DNA of 64,000 bases, from the NCBI GenBank assembly GCA_900317585.1, contig ONHG01000013.1:1-64000 (forward strand), given 5' to 3'. Shown here piece by piece: positions 1,005 to 51,580 of the stretch; position 1 is the stretch's first letter; the number at the start of each line of letters is the position of its first letter. The translations under genes were made by a program, and so were the position numbers. This stretch comes from an uncultured Lachnospiraceae bacterium (GTDB taxonomy: Bacteria; Bacillota; Clostridia; Lachnospirales; Lachnospiraceae). The notes under the pieces were generated by a model. It worked only from the letters and a program-made list of their open reading frames with translations, did no database searches and had not been told where the DNA came from.

Positions 1005-1034
1005 GCAAAATTTAAAATGCAAAGGATAAACTTG

Positions 1035-1079
1035 TTGACATGATGTGTGATACACAGTATACTATGTTAAACATATAGT
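1035..1079 (+). promoter_or_regulatory. padR promoter with PadR-type operator
   Basis: TTGACA (1035-1040), a 17-bp spacer and TATACT (1058-1063) form a near-consensus sigma-A promoter. A palindrome, ACTATGTTAAACATATAGT (1061-1079), overlaps the -10 box. It contains ATGT...ACAT half-sites of the kind PadR/LmrR proteins bind, so autoregulation by the next gene is likely (inference). Confidence 0.65.
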
Positions 1080-1148
1080 GTGCAACACACAATACAGTGC
1101 AATAAACACAGTGAATTTAAATAAAGGATACTGAAGGGAGGAGATTTG

Positions 1149-1484
1149 ATGAATTGTGATGAAATTGTTTCAGGATTAATTTTAGAATTCAGACGGGGCA
1201 CACTCATCATGGTAGTGTTAGCACAACTAAATAAACCAATGTATGGATATTCATTGGTAAAGGAATTAGAAGGAAAAGGTATTTCGATAGAAGGCAATAC
1301 ATTATATCCTCTACTGAGAAGACTAGAGAGTCAAGGTCTGCTAAAAAGTGAATGGGAAACTGAGGCAACGAAGCCAAGAAAATATTATATCATCACAGAA
1401 GATGGGAAGCTGGTTTATAAAAAAATTAAAGAACACTGGAAAAAATTTTCACAGTCAATCAATGTTTTAATGGAGGAAGAATAA
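1149..1484 (+). CDS. PadR-family transcriptional regulator
   Basis: A 111-residue winged-helix repressor of the PadR type. The pattern MYGYSLVKELE...GNTLYPLLRRLESQGLL...RKYYIITEDGK is the PadR signature: recognition helix followed by the beta wing. ATG at 1149 is preferred to TTG at 1146 because GGAGGAG lies at the right distance. The next gene starts one base after the stop and encodes a HAAS-domain membrane protein, the usual partner of such regulators. The pair is probably co-transcribed and self-repressed through the palindrome in the promoter. The inducer is unknown. Confidence 0.9.
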   Translation: MNCDEIVSGLILEFRRGTLIMVVLAQLNKPMYGYSLVKELEGKGISIEGNTLYPLLRRLESQGLLKSEWETEATKPRKYYIITEDGKLVYKKIKEHWKKFSQSINVLMEEE

Positions 1485-2477
1485 ATGGTAAAAAATGATT
1501 TGATCGACAGATACATTTATGCAGTTACAAAACATATGAAATCCGCCATGAAAAAAGACGTGGCGGCGGAATTAGAGACGATCATACAAGATATGTTGGA
1601 GGAACGATGTGAGGATGTTACTCCAACGGAGCGTGATATCAAAGTTGTTCTAACGGAACTGGGAACCCCGAATGAGTTGGCTTCGAAATATAAAGGTGAA
1701 ACACAGGATTGTTTGATTGGACAGCCGTATTATAGTTTATATGTGTATGTATTGAAAATTGTGACAGTGTGCATCAGTGGAGGAATGTTACTTGCTCAAA
1801 TTATGGCAGCATTAACATCGCATACAATCTGGTATATAGCTATCTATAGAACCATCGGTGGGATTTTTGGCGGTATATTGACAGGATTTGCATTTGTGAC
1901 ATTATTATTTGCATTCTTTTATAAAAAAGGAATTAAGGTGGATAGGTTAAATGATGGAATAGATAATTTGCCTCCTGTTCCACAAAAGTCTTATAGGATT
2001 TCAAAAGTAGATGCGATTGTAGGAATTGTTTTTTCGGTTATCTTCACTCTTGTATTTCTTGTATGCCCACAGATTTTATGCATTGCATTTGTAAAAAATG
2101 GGGTAGGTGTGTATGAACCGCTTTTTAATTTAGAATATATCAGACAAACATGGTATTTCATTCTTGCATTTGGAATTTTGGGTGTTACAAGGGACAGTGT
2201 GAGACTTATTGATGGCAGCTATACCAAAAGGGTGATGCTTGTTACCATTATCACCAATATTATTGATGGAGTATTAACAAGCATTTGGCTGTTAAATGAT
2301 AGGATCATGAATAGTGGATTTTTTGATGGTATTGAGCAGTTACTTGGAACGGATGCAGAAGGTATTTCACATGTTTTTATACACTATAATAAGGTATTTC
2401 TCTCAATCATCATTTTGGCATTAACAATTAATTGCATTGAGACAGTCGTGAAAGCAGTAAAATACAGTCGACAATAA
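1485..2477 (+). CDS. HAAS-domain (DUF1700-like) membrane protein
   Basis: A 330-residue protein. About 75 N-terminal soluble residues have the alpha-helical HAAS/DUF1700 layout (DVAAELETIIQDMLEER...LGTPNELASKYKG). About six hydrophobic segments follow (roughly 82-110, 125-148, 175-198, 222-240, 248-268, 305-325). Proteins of this type are coded next to PadR regulators and are thought to sense or relay envelope signals. It follows padR with no gap. Its exact role and ligand cannot be read from the sequence. Confidence 0.75.
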   Translation: MVKNDLIDRYIYAVTKHMKSAMKKDVAAELETIIQDMLEERCEDVTPTERDIKVVLTELGTPNELASKYKGETQDCLIGQPYYSLYVYVLKIVTVCISGGMLLAQIMAALTSHTIWYIAIYRTIGGIFGGILTGFAFVTLLFAFFYKKGIKVDRLNDGIDNLPPVPQKSYRISKVDAIVGIVFSVIFTLVFLVCPQILCIAFVKNGVGVYEPLFNLEYIRQTWYFILAFGILGVTRDSVRLIDGSYTKRVMLVTIITNIIDGVLTSIWLLNDRIMNSGFFDGIEQLLGTDAEGISHVFIHYNKVFLSIIILALTINCIETVVKAVKYSRQ

Positions 2478-2492
2478 AATAATTTTAGATGA

Positions 2493-2774
2493 ATCAATCT
2501 CCATTTACAAAAATGCTACAATGCATATGATTTTATTATAGCAACGTATTCCTTACATCACCTAACAGATGATGTGAAAATTCAATTTATTCAATTATTA
2601 AAAACATTATTAAAAGAGGGTGGTTGTATTCTGATCGGAGATGTGGCATTTCAAACAAGATCAGATTTAGAAAAATGTCATAAGGAAAACAAGGATGGAT
2701 GGGATGAGGATGAAATTTATTTTGTGGCAGATGTAAACTGTACCCCTTGTCAAGGACATTTTGAATTAGTGTAG
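2493..2774 (+). pseudogene. SAM-dependent methyltransferase remnant
   Basis: An open frame from 2493 reads ...YDFIIATYSLHHLTDD...LLKEGGCILIGDVAFQT, matching motifs IV-VI of class I SAM methyltransferases (the Y-SLHHL segment and the following strand). The N-terminal half with the SAM-binding GxGxG motif is absent. The frame ends at the left edge of the IS3-family element. Reading only from GTG 2574 would give 66 residues and hide the homology upstream. Cause inferred: deletion on the 5' side and truncation by IS-associated rearrangement. Confidence 0.7.
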
Positions 2775-2917
2775 TGCCTATTTTTTAGACACCTACACAA
2801 AGATGATATCCCTGATTTTGGACATTCCATCGTTGGGGTATCCACAGAAGTGGGCACATGACATTTGCAGTACCCACGGAAATGGACATACCAGTTGGTG
2901 TGATATTCTTTTTGGTT

Positions 2918-3931
2918 TTATTTTTTAGAATCTATATCAACTGCCGCTTTGCCGAGTTCTTTCGGATCCTTCCGGATGGTTGGCGGGGCAGGAGCATTCG
3001 GGATATCCAGAGGATATTCCCCCGTAGTAACAAATTTGTAGAATTCATTAGGCGACAGCTTGGCAAGATGCCACTGATACCGCCGATTGTTGTAATAATC
3101 GATATAGTCATCAATGATGACCTGAACATCAGCAAACGCAGTACATTCGGCAAGTTTCGGTTTGATATGGTCTTTCATGTGGCCGAAGAAACTTTCCTGC
3201 GGGGCATTGTCCCAGCAGTTGCCCCTGCGTGACATGGACTGGCGGAGCTTTTTATCATACAAGATGTTTATAAATTTGTGGCTGGTATAATGGCAGCCCT
3301 GATCCGAATGGATGATGGTTTCCGCCTGAAGGGACACTCCGTGATCCTCCACCAGTTTGTTGATGGTTTCCAGAACGAAATCCACTTCCAGTGATGGACT
3401 GAGTACATACGACAGTATCTGCTTGGTAAAGGCATCCAGGACAGTAGATAAATAAGCAAAGGTGCCGTTGTACGGCAGATAAGTGATGTCTGTCAGCAGG
3501 ACAATCCGTGGACCGTATGCCTCGAATTCCCGCTGAAGCAGATTGTCTGCAACATTGCTTGTCTTAAGGGCTTTGGCCATCCGCCTGTAAGGATTCGGTC
3601 CCCTGTAGGGGCAGGACAGATTAAACTTGTCCATCAGACGCCGGATCTTCTTGAGATTCATGACCACGGGCGGCTCCATGTGGAGAAGAGCCATATAGAT
3701 GCCTTTTGCACCTTTGGAATAGCCGTGCATTTTGTAGGCAGCAAGTATCAGCTCAAAGTCATCCCGGTCCTGCTGCTCTCTGCGTTCTCTTGATGGAGCA
3801 GCCTTGAGCCAGGCGTAGTAACCGCTTCGTGAAACGCCTGCCATCTCACAGAGTGTCTTAACAGACATGGTGTTATGGCTTTGCTGCATGGTGTTGTAGA
3901 TTATTTCAAAAATACAGGAAGAATCGTTCAT
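2918..3931 (-). CDS. IS3-family transposase OrfB (DDE integrase domain)
   Basis: 337 residues: an HTH_21-like N-terminal part, then an rve-type catalytic core. The DDE triad is visible in LLTDITYLPY (first Asp), HSDQGCHYTS (second Asp) and the QESFFGHMK segment (Glu). The motif MSRRGNCWDNAPQES is typical of the family. The ATG lies 12 bases past the OrfA stop in the -1 frame. The frame stays open upstream as KNFLDQNYREVGALL, so the active product is probably an OrfAB fusion made by -1 frameshifting. Length and motifs look intact. Confidence 0.93.
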   Translation of the reverse strand: MNDSSCIFEIIYNTMQQSHNTMSVKTLCEMAGVSRSGYYAWLKAAPSRERREQQDRDDFELILAAYKMHGYSKGAKGIYMALLHMEPPVVMNLKKIRRLMDKFNLSCPYRGPNPYRRMAKALKTSNVADNLLQREFEAYGPRIVLLTDITYLPYNGTFAYLSTVLDAFTKQILSYVLSPSLEVDFVLETINKLVEDHGVSLQAETIIHSDQGCHYTSHKFINILYDKKLRQSMSRRGNCWDNAPQESFFGHMKDHIKPKLAECTAFADVQVIIDDYIDYYNNRRYQWHLAKLSPNEFYKFVTTGEYPLDIPNAPAPPTIRKDPKELGKAAVDIDSKK

Positions 3932-3942
3932 GAGCAGTGCAC

Positions 3943-4368
3943 CTACTTCCCTGTAGTTCTGATCGAGGAAATTTTTTTTAGAAATTCCATTTCCTGTTTC
4001 AGATAATCTACTTCGTGCCGGAGCTGACGGATTTCGTCAGCCTCAGAGACCGGGGTGTCAGTATCAGCGGGAACCGAATGGGCTGCTGAGGTACCCCGTG
4101 AACCATATCCCTCATGGAATTCGCCGTACTTCTGGTATTCTGTACGGATATGTTGGGAAATGCTCCATATGCGGCGTTCTCCAATGATGCTGATGTCAAA
4201 ACCGTGATCTTCAAGGATTTTTCTGGGTGACTCACCGGCTTTATAGGCGGTCATGAAAATCTCCTTGAATTCTTTGGTAAGAGTGATTCTTGTTTCAGTA
4301 ACACTGTAGATGTAAGGGTTTTGACGAAGTAACTGTTGTTGTTCCTCTGTGAATAATTTTCTGCTCAT
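3943..4368 (-). CDS. IS3-family OrfA (helix-turn-helix DNA-binding protein)
   Basis: 141 residues with an N-terminal helix-turn-helix (KEFKEIFMTAYKAGESPRKI...) and a C-terminal leucine-zipper-like coiled coil (EIRQLRHEVDYLKQEMEFLKK), as in IS3 OrfA proteins that bind the element ends. Near the 3' end eight consecutive A residues on the coding strand (complement of 3972-3979) give the heptamer A AAA AAA in frame. That is the classic slippery site for -1 frameshifting into OrfB. Confidence 0.88.
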   Translation of the reverse strand: MSRKLFTEEQQQLLRQNPYIYSVTETRITLTKEFKEIFMTAYKAGESPRKILEDHGFDISIIGERRIWSISQHIRTEYQKYGEFHEGYGSRGTSAAHSVPADTDTPVSEADEIRQLRHEVDYLKQEMEFLKKISSIRTTGK

Positions 4369-4502
4369 GAAAATCCTCCATTTCTGTGATTAGAATATCA
4401 CATTTGAGAGGTAGTGTCCAAGAAACTGGGTTCACTTAGGAACGGTGTTTGAAAACAGGGGAAGGGTTAGTGAGTGTGTCTGAGAACCAGGTACTACACT
4501 AA

Positions 4503-4679
4503 TTCATGTGTCCACTGTTATGGGTACATTATAATGAGTTAAGGAAAGCATCTGACAAAGGTTATACGGATACTGTTAAAGAATTAAGAAGACAAGGTAA
4601 GAAAGTTGTTGGAATTGGTGAAAAGAAAGCTCCAAAAGAATTAAGGGATGCTTGTAGTGAATTTTTTGAGATTAAGTAA
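4503..4679 (+). pseudogene. NYN/LabA-like nuclease C-terminal remnant
   Basis: An open frame right after the IS3-family element reads ASDKGYTDTVKELRR...KKVVGIGEKKAPKELRDAC, the C-terminal end of NYN-domain (DUF88/LabA-like, PIN-fold) proteins. The catalytic N-terminal part with its acidic residues is missing. It has no start with a ribosome-binding site. The missing half is not found left of the IS, where an unrelated methyltransferase remnant sits. The element therefore marks a deletion or rearrangement rather than a simple insertion into this gene. Confidence 0.6.
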
Positions 4680-4741
4680 TATTACTTATTGGTATTAGTA
4701 GAGAAAATCGGAAGTAATGGAGGGATGGCATATATATAAAG

Positions 4742-4780
4742 ATGAATTGTGTTGACACCCTATAATATAGGGTGTAATAT
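4742..4780 (+). promoter_or_regulatory. Toxin-antitoxin promoter/operator, copy B
   Basis: TTGACA at 4752-4757 and an A/T-rich -10 region frame the palindrome ACCCTATAATATAGGGT. It lies 28 bases before the toxin start. An operator between -35 and -10 in front of a toxin-antitoxin operon is the expected site for antitoxin autorepression (inference). Copy A at 966-1004 differs at one base. Confidence 0.7.
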
Positions 4781-4807
4781 AGTTAAAAAGAGAAGGGAAA
4801 ATTACAA

Positions 4808-5155
4808 ATGACAAGAACTTTTATAGAGGTTCCGTTGTTTTCAAAAAGATGGAAAGAGATTGGATTAGGTGAGGATGAATTACGAGCACTTCAGATAATG
4901 TTACTTAAAGATCCTGTGTCAGGACCTATAATGGAAGGAACTGGTGGAATTCGCAAGGTCAGATTTCCTCTCCAAAATAGAGGTAAAAGTGGTAGCGTAC
5001 GAGTTTGTTATACTGATTTTGCGGAGTATGAAGTAATATATCTGATTACAGCATTCCAAAAAAAGAGTCAGGAAAATCTTACAGAGGAAGAAAAAAGCAT
5101 TTTAAAGAAATTAGTTAAATCGTTGAGAGAGGAAGCTGCTAAAAATAGGAGGTGA
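4808..5155 (+). CDS. RelE/HigB-like toxin of a type II toxin-antitoxin module
   Basis: 115 residues. The pattern TFIEVPLFSKRWKEIGL...DPVSGPIMEGTGGIRKVRFPL...SVRVCYTDFAEYEVIYLITAF has the RelE/ParE order: N-terminal helices, a GG-x-RK(V/L)R loop, and strands with conserved basic and aromatic residues. Such toxins cleave mRNA on the ribosome. It overlaps the antitoxin's possible GTG start and sits 12 bases upstream of the preferred ATG. Toxin-first order is typical of HigBA-like pairs. The catalytic residues are not certain from sequence alone. Confidence 0.85.
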   Translation: MTRTFIEVPLFSKRWKEIGLGEDELRALQIMLLKDPVSGPIMEGTGGIRKVRFPLQNRGKSGSVRVCYTDFAEYEVIYLITAFQKKSQENLTEEEKSILKKLVKSLREEAAKNRR

Positions 5156-5160
5156 TTTCT

Positions 5161-5466
5161 ATGAGCTCATTATTTGAGGATTTAAAAGAAGGACTCGAGG
5201 AAGCTATAGCTTATGAGAAAGGATATGGAGCGGGGAGAGTAAAAACATATATGATTTTGCCGGTCAAAGAGTATAGTGGAAAAGAAATACGTGATATTAG
5301 GACAAAGGCGGGGATGACTCAAAGTGTATTTGCTTCATATATGGGGGTTTCAATTAAAACAGTGGAAGCATGGGAAGGTGGTAGAACTCATCCGACAGGA
5401 CCGGTGTTCAGGCTTTTAGATATTCTTTCTAAAAGCGAAGAAATGGAGTATATTGTTGCTAAATAA
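5161..5466 (+). CDS. HigA-like antitoxin (XRE-family HTH)
   Basis: 101 residues from ATG 5161, chosen because AGGAGGTG (from 5148) fits it; GTG at 5152 would add three residues and overlap the toxin stop. The C-terminal half is a Cro/C1-type helix-turn-helix (IRDIRTKAGMTQSVFASYMG then VSIKTVEAWEGGRTHPTG). The N-terminal half probably wraps the toxin. It should neutralise the upstream toxin and repress the operon through the palindrome at about 4757-4773. Confidence 0.88.
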   Translation: MSSLFEDLKEGLEEAIAYEKGYGAGRVKTYMILPVKEYSGKEIRDIRTKAGMTQSVFASYMGVSIKTVEAWEGGRTHPTGPVFRLLDILSKSEEMEYIVAK

Positions 5467-5746
5467 GCATAGAAATGGGCAGTAGATTATCTGTCAGTTT
5501 TTTATAACATTACATGCAGTAGAATTCTTTTATTATGGCATATTAGTGGTAGAATGGCTGGTTTACTTTATTGTTAGAAGTTTTAAACAATAAATTTCAG
5601 TAATACTGAGAGACGAATTTGACTAAATCAAGTGCTTTTATTGAACGAGATGGTATCATTTACTATATTCGCCTTGGATATACGTTGGATTATCAACAAT
5701 CTGGGATTCCATTCGGATTAAAAAAGTAGCAATTGCGGAAGAAAAT
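5467..5746 (+). other. Intergenic stretch with a tiny unassigned ORF
   Basis: AT-rich and without clear promoter or terminator. A 36-codon frame (5619-5729, TTG first codon) reads TKSAFIERDGIIYYIRLGYT and looks protein-like. It has no good ribosome-binding site and I cannot assign it. It may be a relic of a mobile-element gene. Confidence 0.3.
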
Positions 5747-5995
5747 ATGAAAAAAACAAAACATATTCAAGAAATTAGAGAATGTAAAAATACATTTTCA
5801 AGAGCATTGACAGAAGTATTAAATTCTAACAGTCTACCAAATGGGGGTGTGAAATTTTGTCAAATGGAGGATTGTCGATTAGAAAAAGAAACGAAGCAAT
5901 GGGTATGGTTATCGTATTATAATTGTTATACACACAATCAGAGAGTAACGCAAAAGTTCAGAAATGTATATGATTTTTCATTTATAAGAAGGTAG
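5747..5995 (+). CDS. Small hypothetical protein
   Basis: 82 residues, not recognised. The sequence is polar with a C-terminal aromatic-rich segment (WVWLSYYNCYTHNQ) and no membrane segment or zinc motif. The ribosome-binding site is weak (GCGGAAG about 15 bases upstream). It lies in a region full of gene remnants and could itself be a truncated gene, with a natural N-terminus but a lost C-terminus. Confidence 0.4.
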   Translation: MKKTKHIQEIRECKNTFSRALTEVLNSNSLPNGGVKFCQMEDCRLEKETKQWVWLSYYNCYTHNQRVTQKFRNVYDFSFIRR

Positions 5996-6067
5996 TTTCA
6001 TGTTCATTAGAGTACAAACTTCAAGCTTGCAAGGTTGAATCCCTTTGACCATTATATTTAGTTGGAA

Positions 6068-6595
6068 ATGAGAAACAGAATGAGAAAAATAGTAGCAGCT
6101 ACAGAAGAAAATAAAGAAGAAATTTTAAAATTGTATAAGATACAGCTCGGCAGGGAATTTTGTCCATGGGACGATTCATATCCGGGAATGAAGGAAATTG
6201 AGTTTGATCTTGGTAGAGAATCTTTGTTTGTAATGATTGATGGGCAGGAGATTAATGCTGATGCCGGAAGCAAAGAGGACAGAATTATCGCAGCAATTTC
6301 AATTGATGATGATCCACAGGTGGAGAGGCTTGATTGCTGGAGCCATAAGCTGGCACCCGGGGCTGAGCTTTCAAGACTTGCGGTTCATCCGGATTTTCAG
6401 AATCAGAAAATTGCGAGACAAATGCTGGTATTTGGGATGGAAGAGCTCGCAAGGAGAGGATACAAAAGTGTGCATTTTTTAGTCAACAAGCTTAATGTGA
6501 AGGCTCTGCGCTCGTATGCAGTGTTTGGATTTGATACAGTGGGTGAATGCAGCCTGTTTGGGCAGCCGTTTTTGTGCTATGAAAAGAGTCTGTAA
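6068..6595 (+). CDS. GNAT-family N-acetyltransferase
   Basis: About 175 residues. The acetyl-CoA-binding motif A is visible as ELSRLAVHPDFQNQKIARQM (beta4, V-x-P, Q-x-x-x-x-A/G), followed by beta5 SVHFLVNKLNVKALRSYAVFGF, the usual Y-xx-xGF end of GNAT domains. The substrate is unknown. TTG 6062, ATG 6068 and ATG 6080 are all possible starts; none has a strong ribosome-binding site, and 6080 (MRKIVAATEEN) would resemble typical GNAT N-termini best. It is the last gene before tRNA-Leu. Confidence 0.82.
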   Translation: MRNRMRKIVAATEENKEEILKLYKIQLGREFCPWDDSYPGMKEIEFDLGRESLFVMIDGQEINADAGSKEDRIIAAISIDDDPQVERLDCWSHKLAPGAELSRLAVHPDFQNQKIARQMLVFGMEELARRGYKSVHFLVNKLNVKALRSYAVFGFDTVGECSLFGQPFLCYEKSL

Positions 6596-22167: not shown

Positions 22168-22450
22168 TAAAAACCGCCTGGTGAGCGCGTCTGCAGTGCG
22201 GCACTTAGCTCTTGCAGAGGCGACTAGCGAAGCTGCTTAGAGATTGTAGAATTATGCACATGAAGCACAGAAATGCACCGGCATGGAAGCCGGGGCAAGG
22301 AGATATCGAGCCATGGATGGCGAGTATCGACGGTTTCGTCAAGCATAGAAAAACTGCAGGCATAATTCGTACAGACTCTTAGCAGCGTAGCGTTAGCCGG
22401 TTGTAAGAGCTAAGTGCCGCACTGCAGACGCGCTCGCCGGGCGACAACAA
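22168..22450. other. Large structured palindrome between dgt and dnaG
   Basis: Outer arms 22183-22213 and 22405-22435 are perfectly complementary over 31 bases, with partial pairing extending to about 46. A second, imperfect stem lies inside (CTGCTTAGAG...AATTATGC with GCATAATT...CTCTTAGCAG), enclosing smaller hairpins (CCGGCATGGAAGCCGG; GCCATGGATGGC). No gene fits the gap. It could be a structured RNA, a MITE-like insertion, or a read-through control between dgt and dnaG. Confidence 0.7.
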
Positions 22451-49082: not shown

Positions 49083-49250
49083 CCGGATATTTTAGCCTAA
49101 ATATCTGATTAGAATAATCAAAATCAATAAAGTTGATTATATTTTTATAAAAAAATAAATTACATCAATCAAAGTGATTAAATATAATCATTCCAATAAC
49201 TGTGCTTATGTGTTACAATTATATCAGTTCAAACGAAAAGAGGTTTTAAG
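49083..49250. promoter_or_regulatory. leuA upstream region with candidate operators
   Basis: Very AT-rich. ATAATCAA and TTGATTAT form an inverted pair around 49114-49140, and further ATCAATCAAAGTGATTA and TAATCATT elements lie at about 49164-49192. TACAAT at about 49214 may be the -10 box. Repeated ATCA/TGAT half-sites close to a gene that codes an AraC-type domain suggest autoregulation (inference). No T-box or leader peptide was seen. Confidence 0.4.
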
Positions 49251-51245
49251 ATGAAAGGATATGAAAAATACGAGCGCAGTTATTTTCTGCCTCCTGAATG
49301 CACTTATGACTGGGTTAAGAAGGATTATATAGATAAAGCACCACTGTGGTGTTCGGTTGATTTACGTGATGGCAACCAGGCTCTAATCGAGCCGATGAGT
49401 CTTGAGGAGAAGCTTGACTTCTTTAAGATGCTTGTAGATATAGGCTTTAAGGAAATCGAGGTAGGTTTCCCGGCAGCCTCTGAGACAGAGTTCAATTTCA
49501 CGAGAGCTCTTATTGAGAGGGATATGATTCCTGATGACGTCACTATACATGTGCTGACACAGGCCAGAGAGCATATCATCAAGAAGACCTTCAAGGCACT
49601 TGAGGGAGCACCGAGAGCAGTTGTACATCTGTACAATTCCACATCTGTTGCACAGCGTGAGCAGGTGTTTAAGAAGTCAAAGGAAGAGATAAAGCAGCTT
49701 GCAGTTGACGGAGCTATTTTACTGAGAGACCTTGCAGCAGAGACTGACGGTAATTTCCGTTTCCAGTATTCACCGGAGAGCTTTTCGGGCACTGAGGTGG
49801 ATTATGCGGTTGATGTGTGCAACGCTGTGCTTGATGTATGGCAGCCAAAGGCTGATAATAAGGCCATCATCAATATCCCTACCACAGTAGAGAATGCCAT
49901 GCCACATGTTTTTGCCACACAGATAGAGTATATCAACAAGCACCTCAAGTACAGAGACGGAGTAGTGCTTTGCTTACATCCTCATAATGATAGAGGCTGC
50001 GGTGTTGCCACATCAGAGCTTGGTGTGCTTGCAGGAGCTGAGGAGATAGAGGGTACGCTGTTTGGAAATGGTGAGAGAACAGGAAATGTAGATATCGTGA
50101 CACTTGCCATGAATCTTTACTCACACGGAGTGGATCCACAGCTTGATTTCTCAAATCTGCCTGAGATCAGGGAGAAGTATGAGACATTTACCAGAATGAA
50201 GGTAGGCGAGAGACAGCCATATGCGGGAGACCTTGTTTTTTCTGCTTTTTCAGGCTCACATCAGGATGCAATCTCAAAGGGCATGGCATGGAGAGAGGAA
50301 AAGAAGCTTGATAAGTGGACTGTTCCATATCTGCCTATAGATCCAAAGGATGTCGGCAGGACATACGAGGCTGATGTTATCCGTATCAACAGTCAGTCAG
50401 GAAAGGGCGGAGTGGCATATATCCTTAAGCAGAGCTTCGGTATCAATGTGCCACAGCAGATGAGAGAGCAGGTCGGATACATGGTCAAGCAGGTATCGGA
50501 CGAGGAGCACAAGGAGCTTTCACCTGAGTGGGTACACAGTATCTTTACAGACAATTATGTGGATTTTCATCCATATTTCACTATACCGGAGTGCCACTTT
50601 AAGCAGGTAAATGGCATTTTCGCAGAGGCAGTTATTTTACACAATGACAGCACCAGAAAGGTAGATGCCAATGGAAACGGCCGTCTTGATGCAGTCAGCA
50701 ATATAATTAAGCAGTATTTTGACATCAGCTTTGAGCTCACTGTATACGAGGAGCATGCGCTTTCGCACGGATCTTCATCAAAGGCTATGGCATATGTGGG
50801 TATCACAGTTGACGGCAGTATGTTCTGGGGCGCAGGTGTGGATGAGGATATCATCAAGGCATCAATCGGAGCACTTGTTGTTGCGGTAAACCATTACCTT
50901 GCCACCAAGGCTGACAGTCACGTGAAGGATGAGCGCTATATTGCCATGCTCAACTTCATCCAGGCTAACTACAAGACGGTATCGCTTGCAGACATGGCTG
51001 CACAGTTCAACCTGACAGAGCCGTATATCTCCAAGTACATAAAGGAGAAGTCAGGCAAGACTTTCGGAGAGCTGGTCACCAATGCCAAGATGAAGAAGGC
51101 ACGTACACTGCTGAGAAACAGCATCACAACTGTTGAGAATATCGCAATCGAGGCAGGATATCAGAACGTGGAGCATTTTAACAGACAGTTTAAGAAGCTG
51201 TATGGAATGACACCACTTGAGTACAGAAATTCAAGCACAAAATAA
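49251..51245 (+). CDS. leuA: 2-isopropylmalate synthase fused to an AraC-type DNA-binding domain
   Basis: 664 residues. Residues 1 to about 560 are a complete type-2 LeuA: catalytic barrel with [12 protein letters not shown] and [14 protein letters not shown], then the C-terminal allosteric domain ([20 protein letters not shown]), the region that binds leucine. Residues about 562-664 are a full AraC double helix-turn-helix ([40 protein letters not shown] and [12 protein letters not shown]). There is no stop, frameshift or second start between them. The enzyme makes 2-isopropylmalate for leucine. ATG follows AAGAGGTTTTAAG. No other leu gene is near. Confidence 0.95.
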
Positions 51246-51266: not shown

Positions 51267-51327
51267 AACCGGATCAATATGCTGAATGACAATTCATTCA
51301 GCTGTATTGGTCCGGTTTGCTTTTTTG
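51267..51327 (+). terminator. leuA terminator
   Basis: A long stem, AACCGGAtCAATA..GCTGAAT with its complement ATTCAGC..TATTGGTCCGGTT, followed by TTTGCTTTTTT. Confidence 0.9.
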
Positions 51328-51580
51328 TATTGCACTTTTTATGTGAAAATCTGCATTAAAATTGTATAAAAATGGGAACAATGGGCTATTGATTGTATTT
51401 TATCAAGTAATTTGTTGTTTTTACAACGGATTATATGTACAATGCGGGTATAATATAAATAAAAAATAATTATTCAGAACTACTGGTAACAAAGCAGATA
51501 TTGAGAATTTGTGTTTGGAATGAATAGTTATAATAAAAAGCAACTATTTGAATTATAGTTTAAGAAAGAGAGGAACGTAC
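51328..51580 (+). promoter_or_regulatory. ldh upstream region
   Basis: AT-rich. TATAAT at about 51450 is a probable -10 box. A short inverted repeat GTTGT-TTTT-ACAAC (51414-51427) upstream might be a redox (Rex-like) operator, which would fit ldh; the match to Rex sites is weak. A mini-palindrome TGAATAGTTA...AACTATTTGAA lies near 51524-51553. ldh starts at 51581 after AAGAGAGGAACG. Confidence 0.4.

Follow-up and report, generated by a model that had tools for sequence, protein, structure and literature searches.

The Fused Gene and Its Protein

The window (the whole 64,000-nucleotide stretch analyzed here, from an uncultured Lachnospiraceae bacterium) contains one open reading frame of 664 aa with an ATG start and no internal stops, in which a complete leucine-biosynthetic enzyme continues into a DNA-binding domain. 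The gene, its domains and the hairpin that follows it are:

49251..51245, forward strand: fused gene, type-2 LeuA plus AraC-type DNA-binding domain (ORF list, Pfam, NCBIfam)
49344..50174, forward strand: catalytic domain (HMGL-like), residues 32-308 (Pfam)
50229..50429, forward strand: IPMS_D2 domain, residues 327-393 (Pfam)
50517..50897, forward strand: LeuA_dimer allosteric domain, residues 423-549 (Pfam)
50994..51230, forward strand: AraC-type double HTH, residues 582-660 (Pfam HTH_18)
51267..51317, forward strand: terminator hairpin with a U tract 3′ of the fused gene (-38.8 kcal/mol, z -7.9)

All Pfam domains of the protein score above gathering, including HTH_18 (71.9 bits, gathering 33.6) and HTH_AraC (40.2 bits, gathering 26.6; residues 627-660), and the best NCBIfam match is PRK03739, 2-isopropylmalate synthase, at 792 bits and above its cut-off. 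The HMGL-like, D2 and LeuA_dimer domains together with PRK03739 place the protein among type-2 2-isopropylmalate synthases, the double HTH places it in the AraC/XylS family, and the combination of a catalytic and a DNA-binding domain within one polypeptide is the architecture of a trigger enzyme. The LeuA_dimer domain is taken, from knowledge of the family, to be the leucine-sensing part. The original prediction of an unbroken LeuA-AraC fusion closed by a terminator is borne out by this single frame and by the strong U-tract hairpin behind it, which the list of a simple terminator scan does not include. As the next downstream frame, at 51548, resembles a lactate or malate dehydrogenase (by eye) and lies beyond the hairpin, the fused gene probably stands alone.

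Both halves of the protein are conserved. Twelve checked catalytic positions, whose presumed roles are those of the M. tuberculosis enzyme, are invariant in all 114 distinct fused proteins; the allosteric domain's GNGRLD loop is almost invariant. Mean conservation is 0.755 for the HTH, 0.750 for the allosteric domain and 0.53 for the linker. The dN/dS of the HTH ranges from 0.008-0.036 in five pairs whose dS of 1.7-2.6 is near saturation (three further pairs gave no ratio), and the HTH of L001 and L002 differs by zero replacements at a dS of 0.29. By these sequence measures the HTH is under strong constraint.

Distribution of the Fusion

We searched 60 genomes, 36 of the genus (that of the window included) and 24 from other families of the order. 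The whole fusion was found in an open frame in 30 of the 36 genus genomes, again counting the window's own, with 67-99% identity and lengths of 662-669 aa. Two others (G008 and G028) hold it in pieces cut by contig ends, one of the G008 pieces spanning the fusion; in G011 and G023 the sole type-2 LeuA is unfused and about 46% identical; and no LeuA of this type was found in G007 and G020, which are 71% and 68% complete. No fusion appeared among the matches listed in the 24 genomes from other families. A second, unfused kind of type-2 LeuA, 46-47% identical, occurs in G013, G011 and G023 (L037, L038 and L039, respectively), and in 3/3 it lies directly 3′ of a small HPr-like gene (a PTS phosphocarrier, by eye). 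A link between the sugar PTS and this second LeuA kind is possible.

In the wider family the whole junction lies in one frame in 90 of 397 sampled genomes (a count from the results table), is split in 2 and is cut by a contig end in 1. Of the 397 genomes, 207 contain a LeuA of this kind (E 1e-190 or better), which would put the fused share among these at roughly two in five. Named relatives with a fused gene include Roseburia inulinivorans, Eubacterium uniforme and Butyrivibrio strains. The original prediction had proposed this search of domain architecture across Lachnospiraceae, and had named a fusion confined to one assembly and split elsewhere as an outcome that would speak against it; the 90 intact junctions stand against 2 split ones, and both split loci keep the upstream site described below. 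Chance or contamination as the source of the fusion was set aside, given its presence in 30 genomes of the genus, 90 of the family and nine of the Ruminobacter amylophilus family.

A Conserved Site Upstream of Fused leuA

Fused leuA genes are preceded by a conserved site, ATCAA-N5-TTGAT with TTAAATTTAATCA, at a fixed distance 5′ of an extended -10. In the window the upstream features are:

49123..49137, forward strand: extra copy, ATCAATAAAGTTGAT, lying 41 bp upstream of the main core (motif)
49164..49192, forward strand: main conserved site, with the core ATCAA-N5-TGAT at 49164-49178 followed by TAAATATAATCATT, the proposed site of the AraC domain (motif)
49211..49219, forward strand: inferred extended -10, TGtTACAAT, at the conserved offset 47-55, hexamer at 49214-49219 (alignment of sites)
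49223..49227, forward strand: remnant (ATCAG) of a second copy, weak and by eye (position relative to other species)

The region 49083-49250, put forward in the original prediction for binding tests, contains both the main site and the extra copy.

Expectation maximization on 28 fused upstream regions (L002 and L014 were left out of the training) returned AAAATAAATCAATAAAATTGATTAA with a likelihood ratio of 406, compared to 78-89 in five shuffled sets. For the 29 fused loci that have 250 bp or more of upstream sequence, the site scores 16-36 bits. In the ten first unfused genes it scores -3.4 or less within 450 bp; one of them, L034, reaches 15.2 bits when 900 bp are scanned. A named collection was formed from the best 80 of 470 loci, eleven of them on the same contigs as training loci; since L125, L130 and L139 have no upstream sequence, 77 could be scored, and 72 of these 77 (among them L178, whose frame is broken in its record) have a site of at least 14 bits in the 900 bp before the gene. 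In L194, L196 and L198 the site is present farther out than 900 bp, and L171 and L189 score 12.8 and 5.3 bits, under the 14-bit cut. As controls, 154 coding windows reached at most 9.4 bits, and 99% of 385 shuffled upstream regions fell below 12.2 bits, with a highest score of 17.1. A further set, consisting mostly of the most divergent genes, has the site in 14 of its 20 fused genes and in 1 of the 20 unfused ones. Thirteen unfused family genes have no site, with a best score of 4.0 bits (one had only 219 bp upstream).

The Site and the AraC Domain Travel Together

With identical LeuA counted once, the site is present in 103 of 114 AraC-bearing and 2 of 43 AraC-less leuA genes (Fisher 4e-25, a value that takes loci as independent and ignores kinship); the table of 157 rows leaves out L178, for its broken frame, and L224, at a contig end. 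Removal of the rows used in motif training leaves 75/86 and 2/43. In the other 11 of the 114 AraC-bearing genes nothing within 900 bp reaches the 14-bit cut. The two split loci, L211 (G137) and L212 (G120), have leuA and the HTH in separate open frames, the latter of 119 and 117 aa; the site is retained in both, with scores of 26.7 and 29.1 bits. In L211 the frame breaks at a run of eight A, and a sequencing slip may therefore explain this split; in L212 the HTH frame has its own ATG behind a possible ribosome-binding site (by eye).

Kinship was addressed by independent pairs and by trees. Across five independent pairs, the presence of the site agrees with that of the domain in an average of 4.4 and conflicts with it in 0.0; the sign test gives a median p of 0.125, five pairs being too few for significance. 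A tree uniting all AraC-bearing LeuA as one clade is rejected (AU p 4.4e-5, on 44 chosen rows picked after an earlier tree had been seen). On three trees the AraC label has to change 6, 8 and 10 times, and starred branches force 4 of these changes on the first tree and 2 on the last. A single shared event behind the AraC label is weakened by the independent pairs and the AU test, yet it retains some plausibility because just 2 to 4 changes are forced.

The fused gene also occurs outside the order. Ruminobacter amylophilus is a gammaproteobacterium, and 9 of 56 genomes of its family, Succinivibrionaceae, have fused genes, four of which are L157, L164, L177 and L183 of the earlier sets (for L183, the origin of the neighboring genes was judged by reading alone). 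All nine have a site copy of 17 bits or more. In L279 and L280 this copy lies 43-45 bp before the gene and is like the second copy described below, the main site not being identified there; a second copy at 58 bp was scored in 5/9, L183 included, and a weak one lies at 59 bp in L282. Because the proteins of this family fall among those of Lachnospiraceae in the trees, we infer that the fused gene moved between lineages. Further LeuA_dimer proteins are encoded in R. amylophilus (a frame of 518 aa) and in Acetobacterium tundrae (frames of 519 and 536 aa), so that the fused gene is an extra copy in both.

Promoter Anatomy

Counting from the start of the core, the site occupies offsets 0-27 and an extended -10, TGnTAnnAT, follows at offset 47-55 across 103 sites. 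The TG is exact in 79/103, and at least four positions of the -10 agree with TATAAT in 86/103. The -35 is weak, with 3.4 of 6 matches compared to 2.8 at control offsets. Transcription would then begin near offset 60, in the window near 49226. This agrees with the T-box RNAs of L150, L169, L170, L176 and L199, which start 61-73 bases after the core. Relative to such a start, the site would span about -62 to -35, the usual position of AraC-type activators.

A second copy of the site is found in 42 of the 103 loci, compared to 6 in shuffles. In 18 of the 42 it lies 58-59 bp after the main core, where it falls on the inferred start. Where a T-box is absent, 41 of 74 loci have this second copy; where one is present, 1 of 29. 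In the window a simple scan also reports a promoter-like -35/-10 pair at 49159-49188 that is a better match (10 of 12) and overlaps the main site; 6 such pairs were found in the region, with 6.5 expected from shuffles. The overlapping pair would fit repression.

Leucine T-Boxes in Relatives

A T-box pattern precedes 30 of 43 AraC-less and 30 of 114 AraC-bearing leuA genes, a difference for which the independent pairs give no support. Since 30 of the AraC-bearing genes also have the pattern, the fusion is no simple replacement of the T-box. Within the named collection the pattern occurs in 24 of 28 loci whose site lies more than 300 bp upstream and in 0 of 44 with a shorter leader. Rfam confirms the T-box at gathering in 20/20 of the loci submitted from the 80, and it also matches T-boxes upstream of the unfused L033-L035. 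In the five alignments shown, the specifier is CUC, for leucine, by our own reading. The order of elements in T-box loci is site, promoter, T-box and gene, so that some lineages combine site and T-box and others have the site by itself, as in the window: for the whole window Rfam lists no T-box at gathering. In L024 (G006), of the window's genus, the site is followed by a T-box of 89.4 bits (gathering 93) and then by the fused gene. In L196 and L198 the site and T-box lie at least 1 kb before the fused leuA; this leaves room for another gene in between, and control there may cover two genes. Elsewhere in the window, at 22225-22393, Rfam reports a TwoAYGGAY RNA motif (137 bits).

Search for Other Targets

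A promoter sequence model was built from 30 sites. In 9 of 10 fused genomes (the exception being G030) the leuA site is the only strong match, at 32-47 bits, heights that are partly circular because several of these sites were in the model. In two genomes with unfused leuA the model peaks at 13.0 and 17.1 bits. The best match away from leuA, at 21.8 bits in G019, stands before an infC-like frame (by eye). Scoring covered 150 first-look candidates per genome out of 1,006-6,540, and weaker targets may have escaped it. A 23-base pattern allowing two mismatches gave 25, 29 and 16 matches in G000, G015 and G034, with 6, 8 and 7 for the reversed control. The pattern is close to a palindrome, so that a single place may be counted once per strand; the surplus over the control is not fully explained. 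A pair of matches about 100 bp apart in G015 and G000, at a distance from leuA and between ribosome-hibernation-factor-like and ABC ATPase-like frames (by eye), was set aside.

The leuB and leuC loci scanned gave no further targets. No site precedes leuB in nine loci, the sole match within 600 bp lying in a coding frame, and these loci continue into frames resembling ilvD and ilvB. Nine leuC loci likewise have no site before the gene, and Rfam found no T-box in those nine or in the five leuB regions submitted. At leuC (L105-L107, L118-L123) the gene adjoins a divergent LysR-type-like frame, with a common TTATGGTAAATATGTTTATTATGTATTTT-like stretch between the two (by eye). This arrangement is perhaps a second, separate switch of the leucine pathway.

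Discussion

The fusion is intact and conserved, and the site upstream of it keeps a fixed distance to the -10, co-occurs with the AraC domain, is nearly unique in the genomes scanned and recurs with the transferred copies. That the fused protein binds this site at its own promoter is in our judgment highly probable, and the protein is probably an autoregulating trigger enzyme. In the mechanism we propose, the fused enzyme would catalyze the first committed step of leucine synthesis, and its AraC-type C-terminal domain would bind the site directly 5′ of its own extended -10 promoter. Most likely, a leucine-free enzyme dimer would occupy the main site and switch its own promoter on. Once leucine occupies the LeuA_dimer domain, catalysis would be inhibited and the two DNA-binding domains displaced, upon which activation would stop; where a second site is present near the transcription start, the gene would then be held off. 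Leucine is plausible as the effector because the AraC domain directly follows the leucine-sensing domain, and we are inclined to accept it with reserve. The original prediction read the protein as an enzyme that represses or activates its own gene in response to leucine. Its autoregulatory part now has good comparative support in a site at the gene's own promoter that follows the AraC domain, being rare in AraC-less relatives and kept in split genes and transferred copies; the leucine signal and the sign of control stay at the cautious level given here.

As to that sign, activation by the leucine-free form is favored because the main site lies upstream of the promoter, and we lean, if not strongly, toward activation. 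Pure repression, which the second site would fit, we consider doubtful. It is conceivable, and in our view somewhat unlikely, that the leucine-loaded enzyme is a repressor of the promoter it is made from, a protein counterpart to the T-box attenuation of its relatives. The second copy near the inferred start, its concentration in loci that have no T-box and the promoter-like pair that overlaps the main site of the window would all suit such a repressor. Yet the main site is the better conserved of the two and lies upstream of the inferred -10, the weak -35 suits an activator, and species with a T-box keep the main site.

AraC-family regulators are numerous in these genomes and binding by the fused protein is a prediction, so the site might belong to another regulator, with the AraC domain acting elsewhere or just on enzyme activity. 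We hold this to be improbable, since the site follows the AraC domain through gain and loss, split genes and transferred copies, no other strong copy of it turned up among the candidates scored in 9 of 10 fused genomes, and a separate protein would need to travel along with the fused gene. Least credible of all is an AraC domain that persists as the inert passenger of an old fusion: the linker varies and several relatives do without the domain, but the HTH is conserved to about the degree of the allosteric domain, has a very low dN/dS (dS near saturation) and no replacements between L001 and L002, and co-occurs with the site.

Several features of the system have counterparts elsewhere. PutA serves catabolism, and its DNA-binding part is not known to be of the AraC type, whereas the fused LeuA is a biosynthetic enzyme, presumably feedback-inhibited, with an AraC-type domain. 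Ada carries an AraC-type HTH; in LeuA-AraC, by comparison, the sensor would be an allosteric metabolic enzyme, and one strong target site was found. With AraC/XylS regulators the fused protein shares a C-terminal double HTH of ~100 aa (HTH_18) and a site upstream of a weak -35, but a whole enzyme replaces the usual small ligand domain, which in the nearest stand-alone relatives (L220-L223) is a cupin, by eye. The leucine T-box likewise controls leuA in relatives, upstream of unfused and some fused genes, but it senses tRNA in a leader RNA. Enzymes that regulate transcription are already known (PutA and others, PMC8249747; Ada, PMC2753364). In the first, PutA is described as both proline dehydrogenase and repressor, with the putA-putP spacer as its only binding place; like LeuA-AraC, it is an enzyme that acquired a DNA-binding domain (PMC8249747). 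In the second, E. coli Ada combines a methyltransferase and a regulator in one protein that activates its own gene and, differing here from LeuA-AraC, is switched through covalent methylation and has several genes under its control (PMC2753364). What is new is the conserved site upstream of fused leuA at a fixed distance from an extended -10. Among the matches listed from the open-access literature, as far as their excerpts go and with subscription journals and preprints outside the scope, there is no earlier description of a LeuA-AraC fusion.

Overall, we think it somewhat more likely than not that a feedback-inhibited biosynthetic enzyme serves here as its own dedicated, single-target transcription factor, with end-product sensing, adjustment of catalysis and control of its own transcription in one polypeptide, in a portable unit of gene and operator that has spread in Lachnospiraceae and crossed to Succinivibrionaceae, often where relatives have a leucine T-box. 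The site, together with the natural split and AraC-less variants, makes this idea directly testable. If true, AraC-type control would gain a whole enzyme as its sensor, an example would be given of how a protein sensor can join or supplant a tRNA-sensing RNA leader, and a ready-made leucine-responsive expression unit would be at hand. For the organisms themselves it would mean that the shortest possible feedback loop, one protein and one gene, governs leucine synthesis, and that this loop operates across a good part of gut and rumen Lachnospiraceae, including Roseburia, Agathobacter and Butyrivibrio.
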